From Pogonophryne albipinna (lineage: Eukaryota; Chordata; Actinopteri; Perciformes; Artedidraconidae), in the NCBI GenBank assembly GCA_028583405.1, contig CM053243.1:36828281-36892280 (forward strand): 64,000 nucleotides of DNA. Reading direction: 5' to 3'. A program made the position numbers and the translations under genes. Of this stretch, positions 6,689 to 57,599 are shown piece after piece (position 1 is the stretch's first letter; the number at the start of each line of letters is the position of its first letter). The notes beneath the pieces were generated by a model, which was given only the letters and a program-made list of their open reading frames with translations, searched no databases and was not told where the DNA came from.

Positions 6689-7360
6689 CTATCCCCCGGA
6701 GCAGTGAGTGGCAGTGTGACTGTCGCTCTCGACATAGCATATGTAGGCGTCCGCCCACCCCAGTTTCTTAGAGTCGGCGCAATGCATGTAGTCGCACGGG
6801 TTTAACTGTACTGTGCTATCTTCCCCATCCCTTAGAGTGATGTTCCCAATCCCCGTTTTGACTAGCCCTTCTGCCCAGGTGGTTCGCCCTGCCTTTCCCA
6901 TGTATCTTTTAGACACCTCGACCCTGGCCGATGGGCGGCCGCGTACTGGCCACGGACGCATGAAATATAGGATTAGTCCTATCATAACTATCATGGCAAA
7001 TATGCCGAGGAACCATTCCAAAATTGTCCAGGCTCTCCAGTAGCATCCGCACTTCCCACATTGGGAATGGTTGCGTAGTCGTCTTTCCATGCGAGCTCTC
7101 ATCACGTGGCGTGGATGCTCCATTCTTATATACGGAACAACTTGGTCGAGTTGGTGACACGGACAAGTAGGCCCCGCACACGGAGAGCACGTCAAACGAG
7201 GAACCAGAGGCATATGAAACCGCTCAGCTGGCACTCGCTTGTGGCACCTCGTGTGGGTCGTGTGAGGTTTGGTGTATGTGGTGCGAGTGTGGTGCTGGTG
7301 GTGACTAGGACACGTCACTTGTTGTCGTCTGTTTCTTCGTTGGTGACTAGGACACGTCAC
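6689..7360 (-). pseudogene. Env-like leader fragment of the endogenous retrovirus
   Basis: The frame overlaps the end of the integrase frame, as env starts often do. It has a basic, Thr/His-rich N-terminus, Cys-rich stretches, and one strong hydrophobic segment (WFLGIFAMIVMIGLILYF, roughly residues 115-132). That pattern suits a signal-anchor or leader segment of a retroviral envelope precursor. The frame ends after about 223 codons, and related sequence seems to continue briefly in another frame towards 6590. Surface and fusion subunits are absent, so it cannot encode an envelope. The env assignment rests mainly on position and topology. Confidence 0.55.
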
Positions 7361-9775
7361 TTGTTGTCGTCTGTTCCTCCCGTTTCTCCTGTCCTGTGAC
7401 TACGACCTTGCAGTGGCTGGCGTGGACCCACGTAGCTCTCTCGGCGACCTTGACCGCTGTCTGAGTGACGAGAAGCACCTGGTAGGGACCTTGCCAACGA
7501 TTGGATTTCCAGCTCTTTCTCCGGAAATCCTTGACCAGCACGAAGTCGCCGGGTTGGAGATGGTGAAGTGGACCAGTGGCAGGGGTAGGTAAGGCTGCGG
7601 CTACCTGACGTCGGATATCTGCTAAAGTGGATGACAGATCCTCACATAACGTTGTGGAGGGAAGAAGACATCCTGGAGCCTTGAGTCCAATCTGTGGAGG
7701 AGCCCCAAAAAGGATTTCAAATGGGCTGAGTTGGCTCCGCGTTCTTTTCCTCATTCTCATGTACATCAGCACAATGGGCAGAGCTTGTGTCCATGACAGA
7801 CCTGTGTCTGCACAGCATTTTGCTAGCTTATTTTTTATTGTGCCGTTCTCTCTTTCCACTGCACCCCCACTCTGTGGATGATACGCACAATGCTTCCTGA
7901 TGTCCATGCCCAGGTATTCTCCTATCTGTGTAATGGCCTCATTAGCAAAATGTGAACCGTTGTCGCTTGAAATTTTGTCTGGTAGTCCCCATCTAGGAAT
8001 GATTTCCCTCAGTAGTGCCTTTGCCACAGCATTTGCTGTCTGTGCCTTTACTGGGAAAGCTTCAACCACATGTCAACCACCACAAGACAGTGCTTCTTAC
8101 CCTCTGATGGGCTAAGCTCAATGAAATCCAGCATTAGGTGCTCAAATGGCCTGGTGGGAGGTGGATGTGCTCCGGGTCCTGTAACCTTTACTGGTCTACC
8201 AGAATTTTGCGTAATGCAAATTAGGCATGCCTCGGAGTACTTTTGAGCTGTTACTGTGAACCCCCTTGTGAACCATTCCTGATTGATAGCTTCTAACATC
8301 CCTCCTTTTGACACATGATCTAACCCATGTGTCAATTTAGCGAAATGAGGGAAGAAATGTCTTGGGAGACATGGATTGGAATTTGGACCAACCCAGATGC
8401 TGGAGGTTGGGTTAAAAACAGCCCCAGCAGCCTTCCACTGAGCTTTCTCAGTTTTCTCAGCCAGCTGCTGCATGGAAGTCAGTGATGACATTTTGTCCGT
8501 GTAGGAGGAGGTAGGGATTTTTACAAATGAGTGTGCGTGAGGTGCGAGAAGAATTAGAGCAGCTGCCTTTGCGGCTGAGTCAGCAGACGCATTTCCTAGG
8601 GAAACTTGGTCTGTACTGCTTGTGTGTGCGGCACATTTACAGACTGCAACTTCAGATGGGAGCAGAATGGCGTCTAGTAAGCCTGCAACTAGTACATGGT
8701 TAAGTACTGGTTTGCCATCAGATTTCAGAAATTGTCTACACTTCCAAATAGCCCCAAAATCATGTACTACCCCAAAAGCATAACGTGAGTCAGTGTATAT
8801 AGTCACGGTTTTGCCTTCTGCAACCGTGCAGGCCTCAGTTAGTGCGATGAGCTCTGCTGCTTGTGCTGAGAGGTGACATGGAAGCGGGCCGGAACGGAGT
8901 ACAGCAGAATCTGAAACAACAGAAAACCCCACCCGATTAGTGCCCCCCTGGTCGCGAGAGGCAGACCCATCCACATACAAAATCAAGTCAGCGTTGGTTA
9001 GAGGAACGTCCTTTAAGTCAGGTCTAGGTGTGCACACAATGCGAAGTTCGGCAACACAGTCGTGTTCGTCACCGTCTTCAGGCAAAGGCATAAGAGACGC
9101 TGGATTCAGAGTGTTACATCGCTTGACATAAACGTTAGGCATGTCCAACAGGCATGTGTGATACCTAAGGTATCGTGCAGCAGAGAGGTGTGATGTTCTC
9201 TGCTCACAGAGGATGAGAGAAACAGCATGTGGCACTAACAGGGTCAAAGGTGCATATGTCACAATGTCCCGTGAGGAGTTGAGCGCTTTCTCAGCAGCAG
9301 CCACTGCACGGAGACATTTAGGCAGGCCAGCAGCTACAGGATCTAGCTTGGAGGAGAAATAGGCCACAGGCCTTTGTTTTCCCCCATGATCTTGAAGGAG
9401 AACTGAGGTCATACACCCATGTCGTTCATCCACTGCCTGAGTGAAAGGTTTAGTGTGATCAGGTAGGCCTAATGTTGGTGGGGATTGAAGAGCCAGCTTC
9501 ATTTTAATGAAGGCTTCATTGGCTTCAGGTGTCCATATGAGGTGATCTGTAGGTTTCAAACCATTGACATGCGTAATTGTACGCAGTGGCAACTCGATTG
9601 GAGAATAGTTTGGAATGAATGACCTGCAATATGAGCACATCCCCAAAAATGACATCATCTGTCGCTTAGTGACAGGTTTTGGCAGAGCAGCCAATGATGC
9701 AATACGCTTATCTGAAAGCGCTTTCCCCTCTCCTGAAATGACATGTCCCAAAAATGTAACTGTTTTTTTGTACAT
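7347..9775 (-). pseudogene. Retroviral pol: RNase H and integrase portion (broken)
   Basis: Two overlapping frames cover this part. The larger (8048-9775) starts in the RT connection region. It has RNase H motifs (YVDGSASRDQG, AELIALTEAC, TIYTDSRYA and a GNASADSAAK end), an H/C zinc-binding region and the first integrase aspartate (LMLDFIE). The second frame (7347-8069) carries the second aspartate (SSDNGSHF), the catalytic glutamate (GGAVEREN) and a GPY-type C-terminal domain (WQGPYQVLLV). A frameshift near 8048-8069 separates the first integrase aspartate from the other two, so no single product can be active. Motifs and the GPY segment resemble gammaretroviruses. Confidence 0.88.
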
Positions 9776-11253
9776 ATTGGAGTTTTGACAAACTGGCCTT
9801 GTGGCCCTCGGCTGCGAGGTGCATTAACAAAGCAATGGTGTCGGTTTCACACTGTTCTGCTGTGGGTGCGCAAATCATAAGATCATCAACATACTGTATG
9901 AGAGCCGTGCCTTTAGAAACTTGGAGAGAGACCAAACTTGTACACAATGCCTGGTTGTACACAGTAGGAGATTCACAGTAGCCTTGACACAAACTTGTGA
10001 ATGTGTAAGGTTTACCATCATATTCAAATGCAAACCAGAATTGACTGTCTTTGTGTACAGGAACACTGAAAAATGCATTTGAGAGGTCTATGACAGTAAA
10101 GAATGCTGCAGAGGCTGGAACTTGGGAAAGAATCAGATAAGGATTTGGGACGAGCGGCGCTCGGGCATGCACTGCTGCATTCACAGCTCGTAAATCCTGG
10201 ACAAATCTCCACTCGTCAGGAGGTTTGTCTCTGATCTTTTTGACAGGAAACACTGGAGTGCGTACGGGGAATCTTTACACGGAATAATGACCCCTTGTTT
10301 AAGCAGAGAGGTAAACACTGGCCGAATGCCATCAACAGCTTCACGTTTCAATGGGTACTGGGGTTGATTTGGACGGAAAGTGGACTTAGGAGTGATAACT
10401 ACCGGTTCCGCAGAGCGAATCAATCCTACGTCATATTTGTGTGCTGCCCACAGTGTCTGAGGCACTGTTTTTAGCGCGTCAGGGAGCTCAGAAATATGAC
10501 TGAAAAATGAGAACTCCGAGCCGGACGGGTTAACATAATCATCATTGTCTGTGAGGATCAGAGAACGTAGTACATGAACTGGCCAGTTAATGTTGTACTT
10601 AAACACGTCATGTACTGGGGAAAACTCAATCAATGGGTCGTCTGTGCTAGTCCAATCAGTACTAGATTCCCAGTCTTTAACGATTGGACCCAAATCCCTC
10701 CATCTATCAGTGGGCCCCCTGGCTAGTGAAATGTGTGGGACCGCCCCTGGGATTTGATACAGCTTGTGTTGTGCGGGTGTGAGTGTAACAGAGATGGCGC
10801 TACACAGTGAATCCCAATACATAGTTTTAAGCATGATCTCATCATTCAGACATTCCAGCAGGAAACTCTCATCAAAGCTTTTACACGGTTCATTAATCAC
10901 TTTAGCAGTACAATGCAAATGAGAAGTTTCCATAAACACAGCAGGTGGAAAAACACGCTGCTGAGTCAAACGCAACAATTCTTGAGAATCAGGATATGTC
11001 AGCAGCCATTGATACACACTCAACAGTTCTTTATCATCCACAGTGGGGTTTTGCACCATCGCTGGAGATGGCCGTCGGACTTTAAGACCCTCATTTGTGG
11101 AAATGAGGTCTAAGCCGAACCGGAGAATCAGATCTCTGCCCAGTAAATTTATCGGGCAGACTGATGATAAGAGGAAACTGTGTTTGACTGATGTGGGAAA
11201 TGGATGACTGTCATCACCGTTATCTTTGCACTGAAGCGGTATAGAAAACTTCT
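9708..11253 (-). pseudogene. Retroviral pol: protease tail and reverse transcriptase (broken)
   Basis: From 11253 downwards the minus strand encodes a protease end with an INLLGRDL motif and then the RT fingers (10181-11059). A frameshift in the overlap 10181-10253 leads into the palm frame (9708-10253), which has a VIDLSNAFF block and the YVDD catalytic box. Another shift near 9708-9775 leads on to RNase H. The start is missing because sequence upstream is replaced by the gypsy LTR at 11254. Motif order is normal for a retroviral RT. The breaks are real in the given sequence and no active enzyme can be made. Confidence 0.88.
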
Positions 11254-11539
11254 CCAGACAGGATAGTCGAGGGACAGGCAGGATCAGGGAACAGGCAGAG
11301 CAGGCAGATCAAGGACAGGCAGGGTCGGAACCGGGTAGGCAATCTGGTATACAACGCGGGAAAGACAAGCATGAGGCAAAGTACAATCTGGCAAAGAGTG
11401 TGTGTAAGGTGCGGGTTTAAATACTGGCAGAAACTAATGGGTGCAGAAGAGAAAGAGAGTGAGCTAACGAGTGGGTGTGGAAAACAGGTGAGACAGGTGA
11501 ATGGAAAACTACTGTTGAATGATGGAGCAGACTATGACA
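11254..11539 (-). repeat. 3' LTR of the gypsy element
   Basis: Near-identical to 14868-15153. One visible difference is gcagatcaagg here against gcagatcgagg in the other copy. It carries GACAGGCAG-type short repeats and ends at the TGACA terminus next to the polypurine tract. Confidence 0.9.
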
Positions 11540-11556
11540 GAACCCCCCCCTTAATG
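11540..11556 (-). other. Polypurine tract
   Basis: The minus strand reads ttaaggggggggttc immediately before the LTR terminus TGTCATAG. This is the expected place and composition for the plus-strand primer of an LTR retrotransposon. Confidence 0.8.
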
Positions 11557-11610
11557 GACGGCTCCTGACGTCCCTAAATGCTAATCTACAGAGGAGGGTG
11601 GGAGGTGGGA

Positions 11611-14600
11611 TTAATACTCATCTGAAAAAGTTCTCTCGGCCTCCCTCTCCTGCCCCCTGTGGGAATCTGCATCCTCATCAGAAGCCGGCCCCTCACTGTC
11701 CTCCTCTGAAGAGCTGACGGTAAGAGGAGAGACTCTCCCTGTGTCTCTGCCCGTCGACGTGACGGTCTTAGATGGTTGCTCGGGATTACGCCGATGGAAC
11801 TCCCTGATGAGCCGGGGGTCCAACACATGACGAGCTGGAACCCAAGCCCTCTCCTCAGGGCCGTAACCCTTCCAGTCCACCAGGTACTGGACTCCTCTTC
11901 CTCTGCGACGGGAATGAAGAAGTCGTCGGAGAGTGTACGTAGGCCCGCCGTCAATCATCCGGGGGGGTGGTGGGGGAGGGACCGCAGGAACCAAGGCACT
12001 CTCTCGGACAGGTTTGATCCTGGAAACGTGGAAGGTGGGATGGATCCGCAGAGTCCGAGGCAGTCTTAGCCTTACTGCTGCGGGATTAATTATCCTGACA
12101 ATCTCAAAAGGTCCAATGAATCTAGGTGCAAGCTTCTTCGAATCCACCCGTAAAGGAATATCCCGGGAGGAAAGCCATACCTTTTGGCCCACCTGGTAGA
12201 CAGGTGCTTTGGAACGTCGGCGGTTGGCAGAGGAGGCGTACCGGTTGGCCGAACAAACGAGAGTTCTCCGGGCTTGATTCCAGGTCCGTCGACAACGACG
12301 GATGAAAGCCTGGACGGACGGACAGGTAACCTCCCTCTCCAGGGCCGGAAACAGAGGGGGTTGAAACCCGTAAGCACACTGAAATGGGGACAGCTTGGTG
12401 GCCGAACTGACCAGAGTGTTGTGGGCGTACTCGACCCAGAGCAGTTGTTTAGCCCAGGCCGCTGGGTGCTTGGAGACTATACAGCGTAAGGTCGTCTCCA
12501 TCTCCTGGTTCTTTCTTTCTGTCTGACCGTTGGATTGCGGATGGAAACCGGATGACAGACTGACCGTGGCCCCAAGGAGCGTGCAGAATTCCCTCCAGAA
12601 CACTGAGGTAAATTGAGGACCACGATCGGAAACCACATCAGTAGGCAGCCCATGGAGACGGAACACATGGAGCAGGACCAGCTCCGCCGTCTCTTTAGCT
12701 GAGGGGAGCTTGGGTATCGGCACAAAATGAGCCATCTTACTGAATCGGTCTACCACCGTCAAGATGGCAGTGTGTCCGTTGGACGGTGGCAGACCAGTAA
12801 CAAAGTCCAGAGAAATGTGAGACCAGGGGCGATGAGGGATAGGCAGAGGTCGTAGGAGACCAGCAGGAGCTTGGTGAGAAGACTTGTTTTGATTGCAAAC
12901 AGGGCAGGCATTAACAAATTCCCTGGTGTCCTCCTTAAGTGTTGCCCACCAGAACCTTTGCTGGACTACCTCCCATGTACGTTGGATCCCAGGATGGCAG
13001 GTGAGTCTGGAGTTATGAGCCAACTGGATAACATCAGACCTCAACGTCTGCGGAACGAACAGGCGGTTCGGAGGACAGGCACTGGGTCCCGGCTGGTCCT
13101 GCTGGGCGGCCTTGACCCTCTCCTCCACCTCCCAGATGAGGGCGGCGACGAGCTGAGGAGTCGGAAGGATGGTGTCCAAGCCCCTGGGAATGTTACCTCC
13201 CTCTCCAAACTGACGAGAAAGACCGTCAGCTTTAATGTTCCGAGAACCAGGGCGGTAGGAGAGGGAGAAATTGAACCGAGTGAAGAAAAGGGCCCATCTA
13301 GCCTGTCGGGAATTCAGTCTGCGGGCCGACCGGATGTACTCCAAATTCTTGTGGTCAGTCCACACCAGGAAAGGTTGACTGGTCCCCTCGAGCCAGTGAC
13401 GCCACTCCTCCAGAGCCAACTTCACTGCTAGCAGCTCCCGGTTTCCCACATCATAATTTCTTTCCGCTGGAGTCAAACGCCTTGAAAAGAAAGCACAGGG
13501 ATGGAGTTTTTGGCTGTTCATTGCTCGCTGAGACAGGATGGCTCCCACCCCCATATCAGAAGCATCCACCTCCAAAACAAACTGTCTTACAGGATCGGGT
13601 ACTCGGAGGATGGGGGCGGAGGTGAACCTGGCCTTAAGGTTCTGGAACGCCTCCTCAGCCGAGGAGGACCACTGGAACATAACCTTAGAGGAGGTCAGGG
13701 CTGTGAGAGGAGCGGCCAAGGTACTGTATCCACGAATGAACCTCCGGTAGAAGTTGGCGAACCCGAGGAACTGTTGTAGCCGCTTCCGGGATTCTGGAAC
13801 CGGCCAGGAAGTGACTGCATCAACCTTGGAAGGATCCATCTCGATGCTCCCCTGTCCCACGATGTATCCCAGAAAAGAGACAGAGGATGTGTGAAACTCG
13901 CACTTCTCCATTTTAACAAACAGCGAGTTCTCGAGCAATCTCCTGAGAACCGCCTGGACGTGGTGCACGTGTTCTTTCAGCGTCTTGGAAAAGATCAGGA
14001 TGTCATCCAAGTAAACAAACACGTGTCGGTCCAACATGTCTCGGAGCACGTCATTTACCAACGCCTGGAATACTGCAGGGGCGTTGGTAAGCCCAAAAGG
14101 CATGACTAGGTACTCGTAGTGCCCCGAGGTGGTGTTGAAGGCGGTCTTCCACTCATCCCCCTCGCGAATACGTACCAAGTGGTACGCGTTACGCAAGTCC
14201 AGCTTTGTGAATATGGTTGCTCCCTGCAGCAACTCGAATGCAGAAGAGATAAGAGGCAGTGGGTATCGATTCTTGATCGTAATGTCATTAAGACCCCGAA
14301 AGTCGATACAGGGCCTTAGGGTCTTGTCCTTCTTCTCCACAAAGAAGAACCCTGCGCCAGCAGGTGATGAGGACGGGCGAATAATCCCAGCCGCCAGAGA
14401 GTCATTGATATAAGTCTCCATGGAAACTCTTTCCGGAGCAGACAGGGAGTACAATCGACCCCTGGGAGGGCTGGTGCCGGGATGCAGGTCGATGGCACAG
14501 TCGTAGGGCCGGTGTGGTGGTAAGGAAGTAGCCCCCGACTTGCTGAATACTTCCTTAAAGTCCAGATATTCCGGTGGAACCCCTGTAACATCTGGAACTT

Positions 14601-14785
14601 GGCTGGGGTTCACCGAACGCTGAGGCGCGGCAGCCTGTTTCAGGCAGATCAGATGACAAGAAGGACTCCAACCCAAAATGGCTCCCGTCTCCCAGTTAAT
14701 GTTAGGGTTGTGGCGGCGGAGCCATGGATAACCCAGGATCAGCGGAATACCAACCGAGCAGTTTAACGCACCGGAGGACAGCGGG
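11611..14785 (-). CDS. Gypsy pol polyprotein with chromodomain (N-terminally truncated)
   Basis: One open frame of 1021 codons from the first Met (14676) continues upstream without a stop to about 14785. Domains in order are: a protease end ([10 protein letters not shown]); RT with the [10 protein letters not shown] catalytic box; RNase H starting [14 protein letters not shown]; an integrase zinc-binding HHCC (H near [14 protein letters not shown] later); the integrase core with [19 protein letters not shown] and [12 protein letters not shown] (catalytic Asp, Asp, Glu); and near the C-terminus a chromodomain ([18 protein letters not shown]). The chromodomain places it with chromoviruses and usually directs integration to particular chromatin. 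The frame has no internal stop, but with gag and most of the protease deleted the copy cannot be autonomous. Confidence 0.93.
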
Positions 14786-14867
14786 CAGAAGGTGAGTCAG
14801 GGACAGGCAGAGAGTCAGGGAGTAAGCGAGGCGGTCAGCGTAGATACAGGCAGGGTCGGATAACAGG

Positions 14868-41431: not shown

Positions 41432-43189
41432 TCATGGGATGCATTGTGCTTCAGGGAAACTCTCCCCCTCAGCAGTGTGCTGGACTGTGTGCTCCTGCAG
41501 TGCTGTGAGGTCAACAAAACGCTCCCCGCACCACACACACTTAAACTGTGTCTCCCGCGAGTGCACGCTCTGGTGCTTGGCCAGGTGCTCGCGTTGCTTG
41601 AAGCTCTTGTCACAGCTGGCGCATTTGAAAGGCTTCTCCCCTGTGTGAACTCGGCGGTGGCGCTGCAGCTCGGAAGAGTACCTGAAGCGTTTTTCACAGT
41701 CGGGACATTTCAGCGGCTTCTCGCGGGTCGGGTCGCAGCGGTGCTGAACAAATTCGGAGGAAGACACAAAGCGCTTGTCGCACAGGGAGCATTTCAGCGG
41801 CTTCTCTGTGCAGTGAGAGTTCTGGTGGCGCTGCAGCGTTGAATTCTTTTTGTAACCTTTGCCACACACCTCGCACTTGTAGGGCTTCTCGACCTCCCCG
41901 CCACATTTGTGCCTTAGTAGTTCTCCTGATTGGCTGAAAGACTTCTGGCAGGACGCACACTTGAACAGACTTTCCATGCCGTGAACCTGCTGGTGGTAAA
42001 GCAGGTGGGATGGCTGGAGGAACCCCTTGTCACAGAGGTTACACTTGAAGGGGCGATCAGCTGGATTTTTGTGTGTGCGTCGGTGGCGTACGAGAGCGTA
42101 CTGCTGTTTGAAGCTCATCTGGCACTCCTCGCACTGGAAAGGTCGCTCCTCTGAGTGCGTGCGTTCATGCTGCCGCAGATCAGATGGGCGTTTGAAGCTC
42201 TTTCCACAAGAACCACAGCGGAAAGGTCTCTCCCCTTCCGGCTGGCACTGATGGTGCAGGAGCTCCGATGACTCCTTAAAGTGCATTTCACACAAATTAC
42301 ACTTGAAGAGGTGCTCGCCTGAATGAGCGTACATGTGCCGCACGAGATGAGAGCGGTGCTTAAAGCTCTTCTCGCACACGGCACATTTGTACGGCCGCTC
42401 GGAGCTGTGTGTCCGCTGGTGATGCGCCAGATGTGAAGACTGGCTGAAACTTTTATCACAAGTGTCACATTTATATGGCTTTTCACCGGTGTGCACTCTC
42501 TCGTGGCGGGTTAGCTCTGACAAATGCCTGAAGGACTTATGGCACACTGAGCACTTGTATGGTCGGTCTGGTGCAGAGGCCTCAAAGGAAGGAGGAGACG
42601 AGGCACTGATTGCTGCACCGTCACTGGACGTCTCACCAGTGGAGGGCTGCTGGGGGTTGGCAGCTGACGAGGTTGGTGAGTTATTTCCAGAACCTGGCCG
42701 GTATGTTTTCTCACAGATGGAGCACTTCATTGGGTTGTTTCCATTGCCGTGCGAGTTGTGATGCTGGGCCAGCGAGGTGAGCAGAGAGAAGCCCATCTTG
42801 CACACACCGCACACAAAAGGCTTCTGCTCCACCTGCACACACTGATGCTCCAGCAAGTCCGTAGCCTGGCTAAAGATCTTCATACACTGGGTACACTGGA
42901 AGGATCGGTCTTGGTTCACCATGCACTGGTGCTCATGAGGGTTGGCCAGGTGAGAGATGTCATGGCCACAGGCTCCACACTTGTGCCCTCTCTCGTCCCC
43001 TACCTGTAAGGAGGGCTGCTGGGCTTGAACAGTAAGCTGCTGGCCGTGCTGGGGTTGTTGCATGGAGGCATCTTGCTGCAGGACCACTCCATACACTGTG
43101 CAGCCCAGAGAGTTTTCCGTTCCCGGGGGGAGTGTGTGCACAACCGAAGGTGGAGCCACTGCATGTTGCTGCTGCCACGCCTCCGTCAT
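41432..43189 (-). CDS. znf319: Zinc finger protein 319
   Basis: A single intronless coding exon of 585 codons (human ZNF319 about 580). The N-terminus (MTEAWQQQ, HTLPPGTENSLGC) and the unusual paired-Cys segment CGACGHDISHL match ZNF319 rather than other fingers. An array of C2H2 and variant fingers then fills the protein, with TGEKP-type linkers (HTGEKPYKC, HSEERPFQC) and a Ser/Pro-rich insert after the early fingers. It is probably a nuclear DNA-binding protein whose targets are not established. Upstream on the minus strand an acceptor at 43334/43335 opens the exon, so the 5' UTR is spliced from exon 1 near 44.3-44.5 kb. Next to csnk2a2, as in mammals. Confidence 0.95.
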   Translation of the reverse strand: MTEAWQQQHAVAPPSVVHTLPPGTENSLGCTVYGVVLQQDASMQQPQHGQQLTVQAQQPSLQVGDERGHKCGACGHDISHLANPHEHQCMVNQDRSFQCTQCMKIFSQATDLLEHQCVQVEQKPFVCGVCKMGFSLLTSLAQHHNSHGNGNNPMKCSICEKTYRPGSGNNSPTSSAANPQQPSTGETSSDGAAISASSPPSFEASAPDRPYKCSVCHKSFRHLSELTRHERVHTGEKPYKCDTCDKSFSQSSHLAHHQRTHSSERPYKCAVCEKSFKHRSHLVRHMYAHSGEHLFKCNLCEMHFKESSELLHHQCQPEGERPFRCGSCGKSFKRPSDLRQHERTHSEERPFQCEECQMSFKQQYALVRHRRTHKNPADRPFKCNLCDKGFLQPSHLLYHQQVHGMESLFKCASCQKSFSQSGELLRHKCGGEVEKPYKCEVCGKGYKKNSTLQRHQNSHCTEKPLKCSLCDKRFVSSSEFVQHRCDPTREKPLKCPDCEKRFRYSSELQRHRRVHTGEKPFKCASCDKSFKQREHLAKHQSVHSRETQFKCVWCGERFVDLTALQEHTVQHTAEGESFPEAQCIP

Positions 43190-44329
43190 CCTTCAAATTC
43201 GCAGCTCTCAGGAGATGAAGGGTGTTTCAGTGCTGAACTGAAGAGGGTGGATGTGTTTTAATAAATGGTAGCAAGCACACTGAGAGGCTGAGTGCTATAT
43301 CTGCCCTTAAAAACGTTGTTTAAGGTGTTCATACCTAAAGGGGAAAAAAACATACAGACAAATTACTAAGTTGAATTTTCATTCAAAATTATTGCAATGA
43401 GTACATACAATCAGTTCTGTGCCTGAGTATGAAATGCAGGGCTGATAAGCTGCCAGTTTACATTACAATTATACATAGATCATTCATAACGTGTGTTTAC
43501 ATTTCATCCAGAGGAGGTCCTCTAGCCAGTTTCACAATATTGTGAGTGGCTGATCAAGTCTTGTAGAATACAATTTAAACAAACCACCTAAGCTAGCTTG
43601 AGGGGCCTGCAACTTATCCTCCAGTTATTCAGGAAATATATCGTTATGTGATATGTACACATTTGTATCAGTAAGACAGACCGTATGGTGTCGTGTAGAG
43701 AGCTGACGCACCTTCTATAAACGGAAATAATAGAGAATAATGTTTAACCTGAATTGGGCTCGGTCTATTTCCTGAAATACCAATCAGGCACGCAATAGTC
43801 CCCTTTTCAGTGTAATGTGTATTTAAAACGTTTGCTACGCAATACAAATGTCTTAATCATATCTATATTTCTTATCTCGGGAATTGTTTTCTTTTTCTGC
43901 CGGTTTATTTAATAGTTTGGTTTCTGTTCCAGGATGTAGCTACCCGACGTTAGCCTGTCAGCTTCGGCAGCGACGCTAACAGCTAACCGCTAGCTCCAGC
44001 TAACTGGACTTCCTCCGAGATTATTATCCGCTATTTCACACATTAATAAACAAAACATTGCTCAGTATTATCGTCCCAATATCAGTATCACACAATAACA
44101 AAAGCACAAAAAGGAAAGGCGACAGAAGCGAAGAGGCTTGTGAGCGACCGTCGCTTCGATTGCCGCTTTCTGAAAGGCCACAATAACCGGTCGATACGAA
44201 GCTCCGCTGTAAACGGACCCCAAATCAGACTAGGCCTCCCCGGAGCTGCGGGGGGAGATTCACCTCCTCTAGAGGAGCCTCGCACATCTGCAAATAACAA
44301 CATTTGCAATCTAAAATAAAAAACATACC
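43190..44329 (-). other. znf319: znf319 5' UTR part and intron 1
   Basis: 43190-43334 is 5' UTR joined to the coding exon. Above it, ccccttttag at the acceptor begins an intron reaching the donor tccagtaag|gtatgt near 44329. The intron holds no coding signal. Confidence 0.65.
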
Positions 44330-47080: not shown

Positions 47081-47086
47081 CTAGCT
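47081..47086. other. Target site duplication, left copy (CTAGCT)
   Basis: CTAGCT abuts the left terminal repeat and is repeated exactly at 57594-57599 next to the right one. Confidence 0.93.
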
Positions 47087-47424
47087 TATGGCGGCAAATC
47101 TCTGTCATAAATCGCGAGGGCATATGAGATCCACGCGAGCACAAGTCAAGCAGCCGCGGACGTATATTATTTTCGCGAGCACTAAAACGGCACTCGCGCG
47201 AGAGCAATATTGAAGCCTGTAGGGGAGAAACATGCCTTGAGCATGTGCAGCATCTACATGAGCTCTCCTTGGTCTCCTGCGCTCTCGCGAGCAATTCCTG
47301 CTCTTCTGCTCGTGAAACTCTAGCCTGCTCTCGCGCGCGGAGAAATATTAGGAAGTGGGCGTACCGTGTCACAGTAACGCCAAATCTAATTGGTTACACC
47401 CCTCCTCTTTTATGATTGGCCGTT
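47087..47424 (+). repeat. Left terminal inverted repeat
   Basis: It starts tatggcggcaaatctctgtc and ends near gattggccgtt. CpG-rich, with CGCG-containing motifs at about 47112, 47174, 47194, 47286 and 47331. It ends 54 bp before the transposase ATG, so it is probably the promoter and 5' UTR. Confidence 0.95.
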
Positions 47425-47477
47425 GTCTGGATTCAAACCAAGAAGTACTGTTTGTCCCTCTCCAAACGTGATGAAAT

Positions 47478-50400
47478 ATGGCTGTGGAAACGTCTCACGT
47501 AAGTTACTTTACTAATGATTGTTTTAATTAAAGGCATGGTTTTGTATTCTGTGGTTATTCCACAAGAACCGTCCTTACTTATAAATGAATTGAGTTTTTT
47601 AGATAATACATTTTTATACATATTTTTCAAAAGTATTCAAACTATTCTATTATAAAGATAAGAACCAATTACCTTTTCGGTCTTGACATATGATAATATA
47701 AAATGTAGCTTTCAAAAACTGAATTTGGAATTAATAATTTTGATTACTTTAGCAAAATATTTTATTCACAAATGTCGCTTTTTTAAAATGTCCCCAGTTT
47801 TTATTGCCTTTCTCCAATAAATAATACTATACAAAAAGGATAAAATGATGCAAATGTAAAAAAGCCCAAGAATTTTGCAAGTTTCTTGGCACTTTAATTT
47901 CTGAATGACCACTTTTTTTTATGTTCAAATGCCCTCAGCTTATTTTTTGGAATGTTTATGATGAACATTGATGTTTATGTGACTTATTCTGTATTTGACA
48001 TAATTGTTTCAATAAAGATTTACCACATTTCTTAAAAATATAATTAAATACAAATAAAATAGTGAATAGATAATTGTGGTATAGCGTCATAACTGAATTA
48101 ACAAACTGACCAGAAGGAATTATTAGCTCCACCTGAAAAAAGGACTGTTACACCTTAGTTAGGGTTTACAAACACATATATTCAAGGAATCTTCCTCAAG
48201 TATTAATTTAGTTAATTAAAGTGTACTTTATTTTTCTTCACAGCATATTCTGAAAAGGCAGATCCTGGAGAGACTCCTGTCGAAGTTTGAGCTTGCACTA
48301 ATTCGAGCACCACTTGACCTGGATTTCCTGGAGTTTGCATGTCGCCAGGAGCTGTACCTCCTGCAAGCACTTTCAAGACATGTTGACATACCGCAAGGAA
48401 TAATCCAAGCTCTTCAAGAGCTGTTTGGACTGCTTAGGCAATATTTAGATTCAGAAGCCCCAAATACAGCAGTGGGATCAGTTATTGGTCTAAGAGGACG
48501 TCCTAAGTTTGAAATTGAGAGGCAGCAGTTGGTTGAGATGTTGGGGACAAACCTATCGGTGCCTTGCATTGCAAAACTGCTAGGTGTTTCTTCCAGTACA
48601 ATCTTTAGAAGGATGAGAGAGTTTGGCTTATCTGTTTCAGAACTTTATAGCTCCATCAGTGATGAGGAGTTGGATAACGTGGTCATATCTATCAAGAATG
48701 ACATGCCCACTGCTGGATACCGAATGGTCAAAGGACGGTTGTTATCTATTGGTCTACGTGTACAATGGACAAGAATGGCTGCCTCAATGCATCGAGTGGA
48801 TTCCATAGGCATCCTCTCCAGACTGGCTAGTCTGGGCTGTGTTGTGAGGAGAACATATTCAGTGCGAGGGCCTCTCTCACTTGTGCACGTGGATACCAAC
48901 CACAAATTGATACGGTTGTGGTATTTATATTTCGCTAAGTGATTAAGAAATAATCTCATTGTAATGTCCCAGTTTTGGAGAATCAGTGTTTCAATTCCAG
49001 AGTGCTATAACAGTTTGTTCTTTGGTTTTCCAGTTACAACATTGTCTTATTTGGTGGAGTGGACGGGTATTCGAGAAAGGTAAGACTGCATTTTACTTCA
49101 GTAGACACACATTAAACAAACATGTATTTTTTGTACGGGTTTACTGCTAGCTACTTAAAACCACAAAAGAGGTCCTAACGCTGTGTCCTGACTTTGCTTA
49201 AGGAATTTGGTCCAAATGGAGAAAGTGTATGGACTAAAAAGGAAGCAGCAAAGTCAAAGTAGATATAAAGGAGATTTTGTGCATTGCCTATTTTTGCTGC
49301 ACAATTATGAGTCAGTATACTGTATGTCATTAGTGTTTGCTTATTTCTATTGCAACAGGAATTCTTTAATTCACAGTTTAACAGAATGTTGCCTAGTTAT
49401 TGTGTGTAATTGCCCTATTCTTAAATATTCTCTGCTTTTCTGCAGGTAATGTACTTGGGTGCTTCGACCAACAACCGTGCGTCAACAGCCTATGGCTTCT
49501 TCCTAGAGGCAACACAAAGACATGGAGTGCCTTTAAGGTGAATTCACAGAAAAAAAAAGCACACTCTTTGGAGAACTAGATCAATACTGTGACACTTTTG
49601 GATGAGTATTTTCTTTGACAGTCCTTTGGTCAACTGTGTACATTTCAGGGTCAGAGGAGATCAAGGTGTAGAAAACGTACAGATAGCGAGATTCATGTTT
49701 TCGGTTCGCGGCACCGACCGTGGAAGCTTCATCTCTGGTAAAAGTGTTCATAACCAGAGGTAAATTGCAGCATATCTAGCAACTAAATTAGTGAGGTGGA
49801 ATTATCTGATGTGTAGACCATGTACCTTGCACTTAACCCATGCTAGGCCAGCATGAAAATAGATCACTTGAACTGGTTTTCCCTAAACCATGTATTTTCA
49901 TCCATAGGATTGAGCGTCTTTGGCGTGATGTACGAGTCATAGTCATCAACAAGTACTCTGCGATACTGCTCTGCCTCGAAGAGGATGGTCTGCTCGACAT
50001 CTCATCAACAGACGACCTCTTCTGTGTGCACTACATTATTCTTCCCCGACTTCAGATGGACTTGGGGATTTTTACAGAAGGCTGGAACCATCATCCACTC
50101 AGCACTGAACGGAACCAATGTCCAGAGCAGTTATGGCAACTTGGACTGATGCAGACAAACATTGATCAGCCGGAGAGCCCAGAGGTATTGATCTTGTTTC
50201 AATATTAACCTCTCATTGTTAGAAGCCTGAGTTACCTTTATTGGATTGTCATTGAAGATAGTAATTACTTACCATTTACTTTGTGTAATATACATTGTCA
50301 AAAGATTACTTTCTTTCCATGACCATTTTCTGGGCATTTTATTCAGTTTCTCTTATTTTAACTGTGTAAAAATAACACAAACTATTACTTGATGTCATTG

Positions 50401-50677
50401 TTCCACTTTGTTTATAAGACATACATTTATTTCACCTAAAAGTGTTCAAAACCTCCGTTATGGTTATTAGGAGCCAGATGTTGACTGGGAAATTGCTGCT
50501 GACCACGATGGAGAAGAAGAGGATGCAGGGATTGTCGTCCCTGAATTCGACTGCCCTTTGAGTCCAGAAGACATAACTGAACTTGAATCAGTATTTCAGC
50601 AAATTGACCCAAACACTCCGGTCAAGGAACTGTACTTACTCTGCCGTGAGTATGTAGCTGAAAGATGTGGCTCTTAA
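47478..50677 (+). CDS. HTH-DDE integrase-type transposase (7 exons, intact)
   Basis: The exons are 47478-47498, 48244-48914, 49034-49079, 49446-49537, 49649-49759, 49908-50184 and 50471-50677. They total 1425 bp or 474 aa with all phases matching and no stop. The first exon encodes only 7 residues and joins a GTAAGT donor. A helix-turn-helix ([20 protein letters not shown]) lies near residues 110-135. An integrase-fold core follows: D224 in VHVDTNH, D281 in VRGDQGVE and E316 in [10 protein letters not shown], with 34 residues between D281 and E316, close to the D35E spacing of IS3 and retroviral integrases. The tail after residue 400 is acidic. The exon 2 donor (cg|gttgtg) is weak; without it the frame stops at about 48942. 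An upstream ATG at 47471 is in another frame. Likely role: cutting and joining transposon ends. Confidence 0.9.
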
Positions 50678-50794
50678 GAAATACAGCTCCCTTGAATGAC
50701 ACAGATGAGGGTAAACATAGCCTTAAGCCTCATAGTAGGAATATAATGGGGAAACAGTTTAAGTTAGTAATGTGTATTATATGTGTATTACAGT

Positions 50795-50925
50795 GACTAT
50801 AAGAGGTGGAAGAAGTACTTAACTAAAAGTAGAAATACCAAAATGTAACAATACTCTGTTCCAAGTAAAATTCCTGTGTTCAAAGTGTTACTTAAGTAAA
50901 AGTACCAAGAGTAAAATAAGTCATG
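50795..50925. repeat. hAT-like fragment inside the large transposon
   Basis: It begins gaggtggaagaagtacttaa and contains cttaagtaaaagtaccaag, the same family as 20595, 29590 and 45190. It lies in the gap between the convergent genes and so entered the element after it formed. Confidence 0.6.
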
Positions 50926-51196
50926 ATGCCGATTTCAGGATAGAGTCAAGTTACTTGGCACAACTGGTGACTGGGTTTTTATTCCATTAAATTGAAACAG
51001 ACATAAAATACAGCTCAAAAGTATAATGGTTCCCCAACTTCGCCATCTGTTTCAAAAAACATTTTGACTAGAACAGTATGTGATGTCACTTGAACGTTTG
51101 ACTGTACAGTAACATTCTCATCTTGAACAAATGAAAACCTTGTCAAATAAAGTGCAATAAAGACTGTTTTAACAGAAAACATTGATTCTATGAATC

Positions 51197-54100
51197 TTAT
51201 GGAAGACTAAATTCCCTGCTACTCATAACAGCCTGTGTTATAATGCTCAGGAACTCCGGATATGAGCCGAGGTGCCTTGTCGGAAAGGTAATGGAGTTGG
51301 AGCATGCATTAACCACTGGAAAGCATACAGTGTGTGTACCATAGCGCACGCTGCAATCATGGTCGAATTCAATTAGGATTTTAAATCTCTCTCTCTCTGT
51401 TGAGGTGATGGGGACATGTGCCTGCCCCGTAAGCCATTGAAGGAAGCAACCAACAGTGATCTTGTATTGTTCCTTCATCTCCTCTTCATCTCTCGCCGGT
51501 TCACCTGTAGACTCTGTCTCTCTTGAGTCTCCATCATCAAGATCACTCTCTGTTATCTTCACAGGGGTCCCCCTCTCTTCAACCACGCAGCTCTTTTCTT
51601 CCTCTTAAAACAAGTTGAAAATTAATACAAAGAAATGCATATTTTCACCTAAGCAATGTCAATAAATATGGCTATTGTTTTTAAATGGTTTTTTATGTGG
51701 ATATTTTGAAGAAGAAAACCTCATTAGCCAGTCCTGTTTTAGTTATCATTGTTTCATCGCAACTATCATGATGCAAAGTTGTGTTTAAACTGAGACATGT
51801 AAACATGAATAAAACAGGTATACAAAGCTGTCATTGAGTTGCCTGTCGTAATCGGGGGTACAATTCAAGAACAAATACGTTTATAAAATGTCAGGGCAGT
51901 AGTATCACCTTCATCTTCAATGTTTTGGATGAAGTCTTGCAAAAAATTTATAATCCTCGATTCCCTCTGGCGTCGCAGCGAGCCCAGCTCACTGAAGACT
52001 GGAGATATGGCTCCCATCAGGAATTCAGCATCCGGCTTGGAGAGAAGAAAAAACAAAATGATGTATGCTCAAAGTTGGATGAGCTTAACCCTTTAATTAC
52101 CAGACCAAGACAAAAGCTATGGGAAAATTATTTGTTTGCATTTTTTTATCAAATGGGCCACACATAACCAAACACATTTTTTTTTAAAAGGTATCAATAT
52201 TGATATAAAAAGTAATGTCAAGTGTTTTTCACAATAAAAAAAGACTTGCTCATCTTACTGTATATGCTGAATTGGCCTAACAGCAAATGTCTATATCCTG
52301 TGTTGGCCTAACTTGCTCATCTGTGTGCAACTTTGGGCTGAATGCCATGCATGAAAGGTGCTATATAAATTATTATCACTCTTTCACTCAGACTCATAAG
52401 GCAGTACTAGATTTAGTAATATTACAATGAATCTAGCCATTTATTTACCATATTTTATTGGAAAACATCTCTGAAACTCTGAAAAAGTCATATTGCTAGT
52501 TTACCATAAAAGGCTTGAGCATATTTTCCCAAAACGTATTACACCCTTGTTAAAACTTTTCATCAAGTTATATAATTATGTTCAGTAAGTGCTCTGACAT
52601 TAAAATATGTCAAATGACATGGTTACCTTACAAAAGTTGACCAAAAAGAGTGATTTCGTCAGCAGTGATTTTTAGCATGCCAACTTTCTCAGTTGAAGCT
52701 AGCTGAAGGGCTTTCTGTTCAAACCACAGTGACATCAAGAGGTTGTTTTGTGCATAACATGTCAACCAAATGGTAGAGATGGCTGAATCAGATGGAGTTC
52801 AACTTTTACATTTTTTTTTCAACAAGATATCAAGACACAAAATGTGCTCTACCAAATGGTGGCGCTGGCTGTTAAAGGGTTAAGGTTTGAAATTCAGTGG
52901 TAAAATCAGCTAGAGACATAATACTGACCTTTTGATGAAGGCCAGGGACGAACAGATCCCTGAAATTGTGTGGTTGTTGTACAATCATCTCGCACAAGCC
53001 ATACAGCTTCATGCCTGAGCATATCTGCTGCAGCATTGGTAGGATGCGGACCGATGAGTGCAAGATAATTGCCCTATAATTCAGTAACAGAGAACAGCAA
53101 TAATATAAAACCATACATAAAAAAGGGAAAGAGTGACTGCACACTCAATATGAAGTATGAGTGTAAAAGAATAATTGAATGGTTTTAAACATGGGTTGTT
53201 ATGGGTTAAATCAATTAGCATATGCACATACTTTATTATTTCTTCCTTCCTCTCCCACGTGGCAGGACCACTGTACCCGCATGCTGTTATCCGATCCAGA
53301 AGGTCGTACATAGCTTCAGGTTCAGCTATCTCAACCTTTGCAATTGGAAAAACAGTATCACACAGTAAGTCATGGGAGCCTTAGCTTATTTTAAGAATTA
53401 GAAAATATTCACACTATAAAGAGGTGTGTGTGTCAACCATACTAAAACAAACATGTTATATGAAGGAGTATCTGAGGAGAAGAAAAATATGACCTCTTCC
53501 ATAAGCTGGCTGAGCTCTGGATCAGTCACATCTTCCTTGGAAATGGAATCTCTATCCATCTCCCCAGTGGATATGTATCCATAGCACCACTCTCTGAAAA
53601 GTTAGGTGGAGGACCACCTTGCACTATACTGACTGCCATAATCTCTCCAGCTGTCCTGCATTAACAAAGTTTAATCAATGCATAGACATTATTAATAAAT
53701 AAAATAAACATGGAAAAGGACATTGCAGAACACAATTCTACATACTTGAAATGCTCTTTGTGGTAGTCCAGTAATTGAGTACTTGGGGGTTTTCCCTGTA
53801 CTCCCTCCCTGAAAAAACTTCCTTTCAACACCTGCCATCATTTCTATAATTGAAAGGAAAAGTGGATCAATACATTGATAATCTCAATGAGACCACTGTA
53901 TATGTTAAAGAACAGCACGCGTCATGCAAAGCCCTTAACCTGTGCAAGCACAGAAACGGCATGTAACCAGAGAACCGCCACACACTGAGGAATATTTTCA
54001 TTTAATATAAGGAGGTAAACATATACCTGTTAAGAATTCTTTCCTGAGAGCCCCATGGTCAATTCCAGACTCTCCAATGAAAGACACTCGGATGGGGTTT

Positions 54101-57100
54101 TTGGGAGAAGACCTCTTCTGACGTCTCCACTGCCCTAAACCCCTTTCAAAGATGTCCTCCCTAGTGACACTAACATTAAAGAGTGTGTTGTGTCCACTCG
54201 TCCACTAAGTGTTTCGATGGCTTCAGCAAGACTTGAAGGAAACAATTAGAAGTTGATTAGACAACGGATCCAAAACGTTTTTCCCTTAAGAGACCCCTTT
54301 TGTATAATTGAGTAAACTGACGGACCCCTGACTGATGTAAAGTGGCCTCCTTTTTAAATGATATTAAAGGCATAACAATAACAATGCAGAGCAACTGATG
54401 AACGGTACAATTAACACAAATAGTGAACACAATAACTGCAGAACGTTTTTTGTTTAAAATAAGCAATTACAGGTACATTTTAAGCATATTACCTTTTCTC
54501 TCGCCCGGTCAGTTCTTCACTGGCATGTTCTTCCAAATCGATAATTTGTGTCGACTGCAATGTACTGATGAGGGGAAAATATTTCAATGGGGCATGCCTT
54601 AATCATGGTTTACAATTTCTAACACTGCAAGAAAAAGTATATAAAGAATGTGCATAATAGGAGAAAAAAACCTTTCTTTACAAGTGCTGGCATGTATTTC
54701 AACAAAATACTCTGGAAATAACTCTGAGCACAATGGACAGGCCACCTTTAAAAATACAGAAAAGCAGAGCAAATATTCAAGTGAATTACTGAGACGCAGA
54801 AACCTTCATCATCTGCAATAATATAATTGATAAATAATTCACAGATTTTACCTTAATATCGATTTTAGAACAGGAGGTCCTACACGGGAGCACACTTGGA
54901 GAAGCCTATAAAAAATGTAGAAAGACTGCCAATTAATGACACATACAATGAAGATTGTTTAGAAACAAACACCTACAATATTAGTGAGCTACATTCCCAG
55001 GATTGCTTGTAGCTGGAGACTAATCTAAATCTGGGTCCAGATCCTGAAAATCGTAACCAGTTAAAAAAAGCTGTCGATTCAGTATGACAATGATCCTGCA
55101 TAGTTATTTGTGGAATAACATTACCGGTTCCAGATCCATGCGGTCAGAACAGCTGCTTGGTTCACACTCTTGTGCGTGTAAAGCCAACAGCTGGACAGGC
55201 ATGCTTAGATGACACATGGCACATCTGGCTTTTGGCATATTTTCGAACTCCTTCGATGAGTAGGGCAAGGGGGAGGTGTCTAAAGTGTCCTGGATGGGCA
55301 TTATATAGAGACAGCCTTTTCCCCCTAAAGCTTTGGCAAGGTAGGCCCCCGTGTAACCCTCTGCCTCAGGTACCAAAACACTTAATTTCCGCTGGCCTGA
55401 TCCTCCTATGTGGGAATGTGTACAAACAAGTGGATGTTATTTAATGCACAGAATGTTCTAGGGGAGGCAGTTGATTTTAACAAGATGCACACTTGCAGTG
55501 TTAGGCTTTCTCATGGATTGCTAAAAACAAGAGGGTAGTAAATATGCTAACCATCAAGGGCATAGATGAGCTATTATAAGAGCAGCTATTGTAGGAGAAG
55601 ATAGAGTATAAATAGGATTTAACTGCAGAAATACTAGACCACAGTTGAATTTAATAAGGGAGATTTTTATCTTACCAGCAGCTTTATGTAGCATCCAGGC
55701 CCCATCCAATGGTACCATTTTCGAGTATGATTCCATAAGTATATATGATATCTATGTGGGAAGAGCAAAACAAGTGTGCAGTTAGAACTATAACCCTCCA
55801 CACATGTCACCTCTGTTGAAGCTGATTTGTGACCAGTAGTACTTCAGTGGATTGGGAAACTACAGTAATGCATACAAAATTGCCCCAAATTGGGATCAAT
55901 AAAGTGCTTCTTATATTATCTTGACTCCTTTCCTTATTATTTTTTTCCATCTTACCTGGGGACGTGGTCAGCATTTTCGGGGATATTGAGAGTCCTCCTG
56001 CCAAGTCCAGCCTGCAGAAGGACCATTTCATCCGATGAATTTGGTGTTCTTTCTGTGCACTTATTGAGCAGAAAGAACTGGATTGGGGTTGACCTAAGAG
56101 CCCTTCTTTTGGGAGGTGGGGTATAGCTTTTACCAGATTTGAATAGGCCGGGGAAAGCCCTGAGGAGTTGAAAACAATGTGTAAGAGAGGCATTTAAGAA
56201 GCTGTTATACAATATAATCATTCTGAATCTAAACAATCTGAAGAGCGGTAATTTCTATTAAAAAATACCCTGAATTATAGTCAATTGCCGAGTTATTACA
56301 ATGACAATTCAGTTCAGAACAATCTTTATTCCTAACGGATCCAAACCTGGCCATATTTTTATCCACTGTATTTCCTGCTGTAGAAGGAAAGCCAGGGGTC
56401 CTTTGTTGCTGCTGCCCCTGGACTGCCTGACGCTGCCTTGTCCCAGCCTGCTGCCTGTTGCCAAGAGCAGACTGCTGCTGTCCCTGTATAGTAGGCTGTC
56501 TGTTGCCCACCTCCACCTGCTCTCCCTGAACCTGTACTTCATCTGTGAACACAATTTAAAGATGTCTATGATTCCATAGAATCTAAATAAACTGAGTCCT
56601 AAATACGTAAAGTAGTTAGAATATATAAAGGCTTCATTAATTAAACATTACCCAGATAGTCACAAGCCCTGAAAATAAATAGAAGAAGAACAAGAAGAAG
56701 ATGAACCTTTAATTATCCCCCATGGGGAAATTCAGTTTTTCACTCTGGTTTTAATATGGGTTGGTAAACTGTCACTGAAACACCTCGGCGTGCTTCCGCC
56801 GGCCAAAACTGCAGCTGCAATTCTTTGTAAACGACTGACCATTAGATGAATCTGTGAAGACAAGTGATCTCCCCCTAGTTTCACTTACGATTTTGAGAAG
56901 TTGGTTCAGCCAAGGCACTTCTCAGCAAGTCAACAACACGCCTGGCAGCATTTTTGTAACTCTATCTGTTAAAACAGACACAAACAAGAAATAGTCAAAT
57001 TGATTGTCACAATCACAGTGCAAAGACATGTCGTCTTGTTTATCCAGATCTGCTAACAGTTAACTTTAGCTAACTTGTATTATTGCAAGCAGACAGCTGT

Positions 57101-57206
57101 GTCACTTTCTTCTTATACGTAAATAATGCAATGTCAATATCAAGATAAAATGATAGTTATGTTAAACCGGTAGTTTTTTTGTACGTACCTCCTTGTCGTC
57201 AGCCAT
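51197..57206 (-). pseudogene. Zinc-finger/HECT E3 ligase-like companion gene, decaying
   Basis: Exons are readable on the minus strand: 57206-57189 (MADDKE), 56961-56889, 56542-56347 (Gln-rich), 56159-55956, about 55750-55672, 55405-55125, about 54900-54850, about 54745-54680, about 54560-54490, about 54226-54030, about 53845-53747, 53655-53494, 53335-53232, 53073-52929, 52035-51909 and 51603-51197. Two C2HC modules (CAMC-H-C near 55.2 kb, CPLC-H-C near 54.74 kb) resemble UBZ-type fingers. The rest is a HECT-type domain whose C-lobe contains NACSNSITFP, where the Cys would be the ubiquitin-accepting residue. It resembles the multicopy fish proteins annotated as G2/M-phase-specific E3-like. 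Reading-frame breaks occur near 54190, 53790 and 53615, and a phase conflict near 55750, so this copy cannot make a full protein. A 17-bp microexon (56668-56652) would shift the frame and is probably skipped. Confidence 0.8.
52300..52380 (+). repeat. Retroposon-tail-like fragment
   Basis: gaatgccatgcatgaaaggtgctatataaat is the same LINE/SINE tail type as at 4982-5028. It lies in an intron of the HECT-like gene. Confidence 0.5.
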
Positions 57207-57253
57207 TCTTCTTCTGCGGGGCTTTCCCGCTCCGATATCACTCTTCATTTGAA

Positions 57254-57593
57254 AACGGCCAATCATAAAAGAGGAGGGGTGTAACCAATTAGATTTGGCG
57301 TTACTGGGACACGGTACGCCCACTTCCTAATATTTCTCCCGCGCGCGAGAGCAGGCCAGAGTTTTCACGAGCAGAAGAGCAGGAATTGCTCGCGAGAGCG
57401 CAGGAGACCAAGGAGAGCTCATGTAGATGCTGCACATGCTCAAGGCATGTTTCTCCCCTGCAGGCTTCAATATTGCTCTCGCGCGAGTGCCGTTTTAGTG
57501 CTCGCGAAAATAATATACGTCCGCGGCTGCTTGACTTGTGCTCGCGTGGATCTCATATGCCCTCGCGATTTATGACAGAGATTTGCCGCCATA
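57254..57593 (-). repeat. Right terminal inverted repeat
   Basis: Reverse complement of 47087-47424 with scattered differences (for example cctgcagg against cctgtagg, and single-base length changes near the inner end). It ends 48 bp before the ATG of the HECT-like gene, mirroring the left side. Confidence 0.95.
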
Positions 57594-57599
57594 CTAGCT
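57594..57599. other. Target site duplication, right copy (CTAGCT)
   Basis: Exact match to 47081-47086. Confidence 0.93.

Follow-up and report, generated by a model that had tools for sequence, protein, structure and literature searches.

A young IS3EU-type transposon of Pogonophryne albipinna with a DDE transposase gene and a second gene for a predicted HECT-type ubiquitin-ligase-like protein

What kind of mobile element occupies 10.5 kb of a 64,000-nucleotide stretch of Pogonophryne albipinna contig CM053243.1 (the window, positions 36,828,281 to 36,892,280), and what does its second gene encode? A preliminary description of this DNA had proposed a complete IS3EU element with a spliced transposase and an unnamed second gene. 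Our analysis favors, with a probability of roughly 0.82, a young IS3EU (IS3EU/GingerRoot) transposon with two convergent genes, one for a DDE transposase and one for a HECT-type ligase-like protein with two C2HC fingers. The superfamily itself was already known; what is added here is the HECT gene. Coordinates of all features are collected in Table 1.

Termini and transposase

The element is flanked by terminal inverted repeats of about 340 bp each, with the outer ends TATGGCGGC...GCCGCCATA. Alignment of the two arms gave an outer block of 231 nt with 100% identity (47087-47317 / 57363-57593), an inner block of 89 nt with 98% identity (47339-47427 / 57251-57339) and between them a 26-nt stretch at 96%. 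The arms had previously been placed at 47087-47424 and 57254-57593, which agrees with our limits within about 3 bp on the inner side, and the CTAGCT reported on both sides is exact. The termini read TATGG..CCATA in the window element as well as in other copies. In the section of PMC10045372 that deals with the superfamily, IS3EU elements are described with TA..TA termini and usually 6-bp duplications, and the rust-fungal IS3EU set presented in part of PMC12730594 has TAYGG..CCRTA ends.

The transposase gene of the window copy is open over seven GT-AG exons and encodes 474 amino acids, including the triad D224/D281/E316 that had been read before. The end of exon 2 was placed at 48914 because the homologues P0001 and P0003 read HKLIRYNIV there. 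In a Pfam scan the protein matched rva_4 with 4.6e-67 and rve with only 0.0036. The homologue P0005 was matched by the IS481 model (1.1e-14) and the IS3 model (1.1e-13), both below the models' cut-offs for bacterial members. Scanning the N-terminus up to an E value of 10 yielded mainly helix-turn-helix (HTH) families, and the integrase zinc-binding (HHCC) family was not listed. A sequence search of the PDB returned a chance-level HTH match (0.3) and nothing else. Judged from these sequence matches, the core is integrase-like and related to bacterial IS3/IS481. The annotated P. albipinna homologue JOQ06_009542 on Chromosome_2 is probably the transposase of the window copy itself.

These data also bear on another placement, in which the element would belong to the retroviral-integrase branch as a Ginger1/Ginger2 or Polinton-type element. 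Its integrase core has the same fold as that branch and, according to the relevant section of PMC10045372, Polintons likewise make 6-bp duplications; the same section gives 4 bp for Ginger1 and 4-5 bp for Ginger2, against the 6 bp and the TA..TA ends found here. The large lead of rva_4 over rve and the HTH-like N-terminus, with the HHCC model absent from the list, speak against it as well. Polinton/Maverick elements are 15-20 kb long and encode additional proteins besides a protein-primed polymerase. Here two genes only 519 bp apart fill the 10.5 kb and so leave no room for such a polymerase, although a search aimed at polymerases was not made. We consider this placement very unlikely. The termini, the duplication length and the transposase core together fit IS3EU, which shares with the window element the TA..TA ends, the 6-bp duplications and an IS3/IS481-like DDE enzyme without HHCC finger, and the earlier assignment to this superfamily is upheld as far as sequence comparison reaches.

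Copies of the element and their age

Searching the genome with the left arm as query yielded at least 44 matches (best 40 of 63 candidates scored), and 35 genomic stretches were retrieved for comparison. Target-site duplications were counted in the 12 copies with both ends recognized, that is 11 plus the window copy; one-ended copies were left out. A perfect 6-bp duplication was present in 7 of the 12 (GACGTG, GGGCTG, CTAGCT, GGCGTG, GGGGAG, CATTTG, CACTGG). Two had five of six positions in common (TATGTG/TAGGTG and AGAGCC/AGAGTC), and three had none. Further copies with 6-bp duplications, proposed earlier as a check, were thus found. Because both recur across copies, the 6-bp duplication length and the TATGG termini are regarded as family properties. 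Among the seven copies with a perfect duplication is an internally deleted element of 1.19 kb at C12:16.62 Mb. This suggests mobilization in trans, the alternative being a deletion after insertion.

Divergence was measured as substitutions relative to the column majority of the near-full copies, leaving out columns with less than 60% agreement. The left half had 0.02-0.32% substitutions in 9 of 10 near-full copies and the right half 0.02-0.57% in 10 of 11. The outlier, the copy at C4:7.68 Mb, had 0.95% (left) and 1.28% (right). The compared copies were chosen among the best matches, so that older ones are under-represented, and several retrieved fragments were only 87-96% alike. Among the scored candidates the left arm matched at 100% in four places, including its own. 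The transposase frame was open in 6 of the 11 near-full copies. Judged by the low divergence between copies, the family is young and the window element very young. Identity between the two arms was rejected as an age clock: most of the other near-full copies show a similar difference of 1-2% between their left-type and right-type arms, so that these differences look fixed in the family. Recent mobility, as claimed in the preliminary description, is accordingly supported by the low copy divergence and not by the near-identical ends that had been cited for it.

Could the open, near-identical copies reflect duplication in the assembly (uncollapsed haplotigs) and not separate insertions? The copies at C3:37800243 and C3:11382064 share a flank that is identical at 200 of 200 positions in inverted orientation, and copies also occur on small contigs, C187 and C790 among them. 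Against this, the nine copies with a full or five-of-six duplication have nine different 6-bp flanks, and we regard assembly duplication as a general explanation as very unlikely. The common flank on C3 may represent a segmental duplication, a rearrangement at the element or an assembly duplication.

Several individual copies had unusual surroundings. At C4:7679661-7689711, which is without a 6-bp duplication, the sequence adjoining one end recurs in inverted form beside the other (cccagaag / cttctggg), and in the wider flanks 138 of 200 positions match in inverted, ungapped comparison. At C9:24155527-24182180 one copy is apparently inserted in the terminal repeats of another, giving a nested arrangement of 26 kb. 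The right end of the copy at C4:3716987-3727466 is followed within less than 100 bp by an ATG. Read by eye, the frame beginning there (MAVELYLDLLSQPCRSVLIFAKKNNIPHEV...) resembles glutathione S-transferase theta; a Pfam scan of the 38-amino-acid piece was without match.

The second gene and its association with the transposase

The second gene runs convergent to the transposase gene, and each of the two begins just inside one terminal repeat. It is open in two copies, where it encodes a protein of 782 amino acids with two C2HC fingers and a HECT domain. In the window copy the frame is broken by short indels. The right half of the window element differs by 22 short indels and only 4 substitutions, and 13 of the 22 indels lie at or beside runs of at least three identical bases. 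The assembly combines PacBio Sequel long reads with short-read polishing, as stated in the assembly description within PMC10716251. Because indels outnumber substitutions and often sit at base runs in a long-read assembly, they look like assembly errors rather than real changes, and a truly decayed gene was judged less likely. The word complete, used for this element before, therefore needs a caveat for its second gene, which exists as described and is not open in the window copy.

The identity of this protein was addressed by comparison with its homologues. The cysteine of the HECT C-lobe is kept in all 44 homologues that cover the position (the other 3 of the 47 aligned have gaps there), and the ligands of the C2HC fingers are conserved in 41-45 of 47. 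Such conservation across divergent homologues points to selection on the HECT protein. A predicted structure of a HECT homologue has the two-lobe HECT fold, and the best match in a sequence search of the PDB was SMURF1 (0.0008). The second gene is thus predicted to encode a HECT-type ubiquitin-ligase-like protein. It would share the two-lobe fold and the C-lobe cysteine with the ligases HUWE1 and SMURF1/2; it differs from them in having two C2HC fingers ahead of the HECT domain, in being transposon-encoded and in its low identity to them (11-19% in structural alignments).

Next to its identity, the association of the gene with the transposase was analyzed. All 92 HECT matches in the own genome (best 58 of 380 candidates scored) lie at or near loci with the repeats or the transposase of the transposon family. 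From the best 120 of 1126 transposase matches and all 86 HECT matches in the protein searches, contigs common to both were paired by eye. At least eight contigs were shared, in at least seven teleost species besides Pogonophryne: Labeo (11,838 bp), Brachyhypopomus, Paramormyrops, Melanotaenia (two), Coilia, Leuciscus and Engraulis. Chromosome-sized contigs are evidence of sharing and not of adjacency; close neighborhood is clear only in Labeo and in Coilia, the latter with consecutive locus tags. In Brachyhypopomus both proteins start with the same nine residues, MAEHDERGL, a match that a first exon inside the duplicated terminal repeat would explain. In the HECT homologue of this fish (P0195) the HECT domain is of another type and shares 20-32% identity with the other eight, and the homologue of Engraulis (P0149) has a PHD-like finger (PF23011). 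These altered modules suggest module exchange.

A second related family was found at C12:33114459-33118967, where a transposase lies in a 4.5-kb stretch between inverted repeats of 93-94% identity. It is 58% identical to the window transposase over residues 9-233. A matching flank duplication was not seen by eye at this copy.

Several results weigh against our reading of the element. The second gene is open in only 2 of 11 copies, the window copy not being one of them, and Pfam recognizes HECT in the 782-residue protein only weakly (0.0019, below the cut-off). The three copies without duplication are those at C4:7.68 Mb and C7:3.915 Mb and the nested pair on C9. The identity matrices of transposase and HECT protein showed no significant correlation over nine pairs (Mantel r 0.22, p 0.22). 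This is due mainly to the divergent type of HECT in Brachyhypopomus; without it rho was 0.58. Finally, no HECT match was present in 13.4 kb retrieved around the copy of the C12:33.11 Mb family, so that not all relatives need HECT. The few open copies, the lack of a significant correlation and the relative without HECT match would suit a passive passenger, a captured host gene that spread by hitch-hiking without a role in transposition. Shared contigs in at least seven other teleost species and the cysteine and finger ligands kept across divergent homologues argue against this, and we hold a mere passenger to be unlikely. The transposon with two convergent genes remains the preferred reading.

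Table 1. Positions of the transposon and its parts in the window
Feature	Position	Strand	Basis
IS3EU-type transposon, 10.5 kb, Pogonophryne albipinna chromosome	47087-57593
Left target-site duplication, CTAGCT	47081-47086	.	6-bp duplications also in other copies
Left terminal inverted repeat, start TATGGCGGC, CpG-rich	47087-47427	+	arm alignment, motif count
Transposase gene, 7 exons, 474 amino acids, HTH and integrase core (rva_4)	47478-50677	+	GT-AG splicing, homologues
Transposase exons	47478-47498, 48244-48914, 49034-49079, 49446-49537, 49649-49759, 49908-50184, 50471-50677	+
Second gene, predicted HECT E3-ligase-like, 17 exons	51197-57206	-	projection from intact copy; homologue structure
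Second gene, exon 1	57206-57189	-	projection from intact copy
Second gene, exon with first C2HC finger (CAMC...HAQEC)	55125-55405	-
Second gene, exon with second C2HC finger (CPLC...HASTC)	54745-54672	-
Second gene, last exon (17), HECT C-lobe with conserved catalytic-type cysteine (VNAC)	51603-51197	-
Right terminal inverted repeat, element end GCCGCCATA	57251-57593	-	arm alignment, motif count
Right target-site duplication, CTAGCT	57594-57599	.	exact repeat of left flank

Outside the element, inspection by eye revealed adjoining open reading frames (ORFs) of retroviral or long terminal repeat (LTR) retrotransposon type (reverse transcriptase, integrase) on the minus strand at 6689-14796, including an ORF of 1061 amino acids at 11611-14796. 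A further frame of 586 amino acids on the minus strand (41432-43192), also noted by eye, is rich in C2H2 zinc fingers.

CpG-rich repeats, proposed mechanism and meaning

The terminal repeats stand out by their composition. The two arms have observed/expected CpG ratios of 1.16 and 1.12, compared with 0.38 for the interior and 0.59 for the remainder of the window. Within its 338 bp the left arm contains 8 CGCGAG/CTCGCG hexamers at six places, overlaps counted apart, where 0.5 are expected; this number was reached in none of 2000 dinucleotide shuffles of the arm. The same hexamers are absent from the 9.8-kb interior and occur 8 times in the remaining 53.5 kb of the window. The arm of the C12:33.11 Mb family is CpG-rich too and has 5 such hexamers in 225 bp (raw count), including an exact TCTCGCGAGA; in the window family this sequence is present only with one mismatch, at two places in the left arm. 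According to the part of PMC9363121 concerned with it, TCTCGCGAGA is the Banp motif of CpG-island promoters and was found again in zebrafish. The left repeat is probably both a transposase-binding end and the transposase promoter, and the right repeat is probably the promoter of the second gene.

How such an element would move can be proposed from the integrase/IS3 type of its enzyme. The transposase would bind both ends and bring them into synapsis, the element would be cut out by cleavage at its TA termini, and strand transfer into target DNA would be staggered by 6 bp. The repeats, rich in CpG, may provide arrays of binding sites and also act as two promoters directed inward, and internally deleted copies probably moved in trans. 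In a less certain step, the HECT protein might modify a host factor of silencing or repair, or the transposase, and thereby favor transposition; it could be a cargo that helps the element to deal with the host. More tentatively, and with less than even confidence, we suggest that teleost IS3EU elements possess a dedicated counter-host ubiquitin ligase, a counterpart of the alpha-kinase and TET genes of their fungal relatives, together with CpG-island-like repeats with CGCGAG motifs of Banp type, each repeat being at once a transposase-binding end and a promoter, driven by a host factor, of one of the two convergent genes.

A precedent for accessory genes exists in fungi. According to PMC12730594, the fungal IS3EU families with a TET/JBP gene have TAYGG..CCRTA ends and 6-bp duplications like the window element, and also carry an alpha-kinase gene opposite to the transposase. 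An accessory gene opposite to the transposase is thus common to both, while its nature differs, being alpha-kinase and TET/JBP in these fungal elements and a predicted HECT-type ligase here. A report of a HECT gene joined with IS3EU was not found in the open-licence PMC literature. Annotations of both genes exist already, under hypothetical or domain-based protein names (for the second, the homologue JOQ06_019260 on C16), and the names examined make no mention of one shared transposon. The same holds for the teleost homologues of both proteins, which are named 'G2/M phase-specific E3 ubiquitin-protein ligase-like', 'zgc:112970' and 'zgc:174680', several homologue pairs lying on common contigs.

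IS3EU is among the eukaryotic superfamilies with little published work, and we know of no functional assay of any member. The identical copies with an open transposase make IS3EU transposition directly testable. A HECT ligase borne by a transposon would, if active, be an unusual accessory function among vertebrate DNA transposons, and may account for some of the fish gene predictions named 'G2/M phase-specific E3 ligase-like'.
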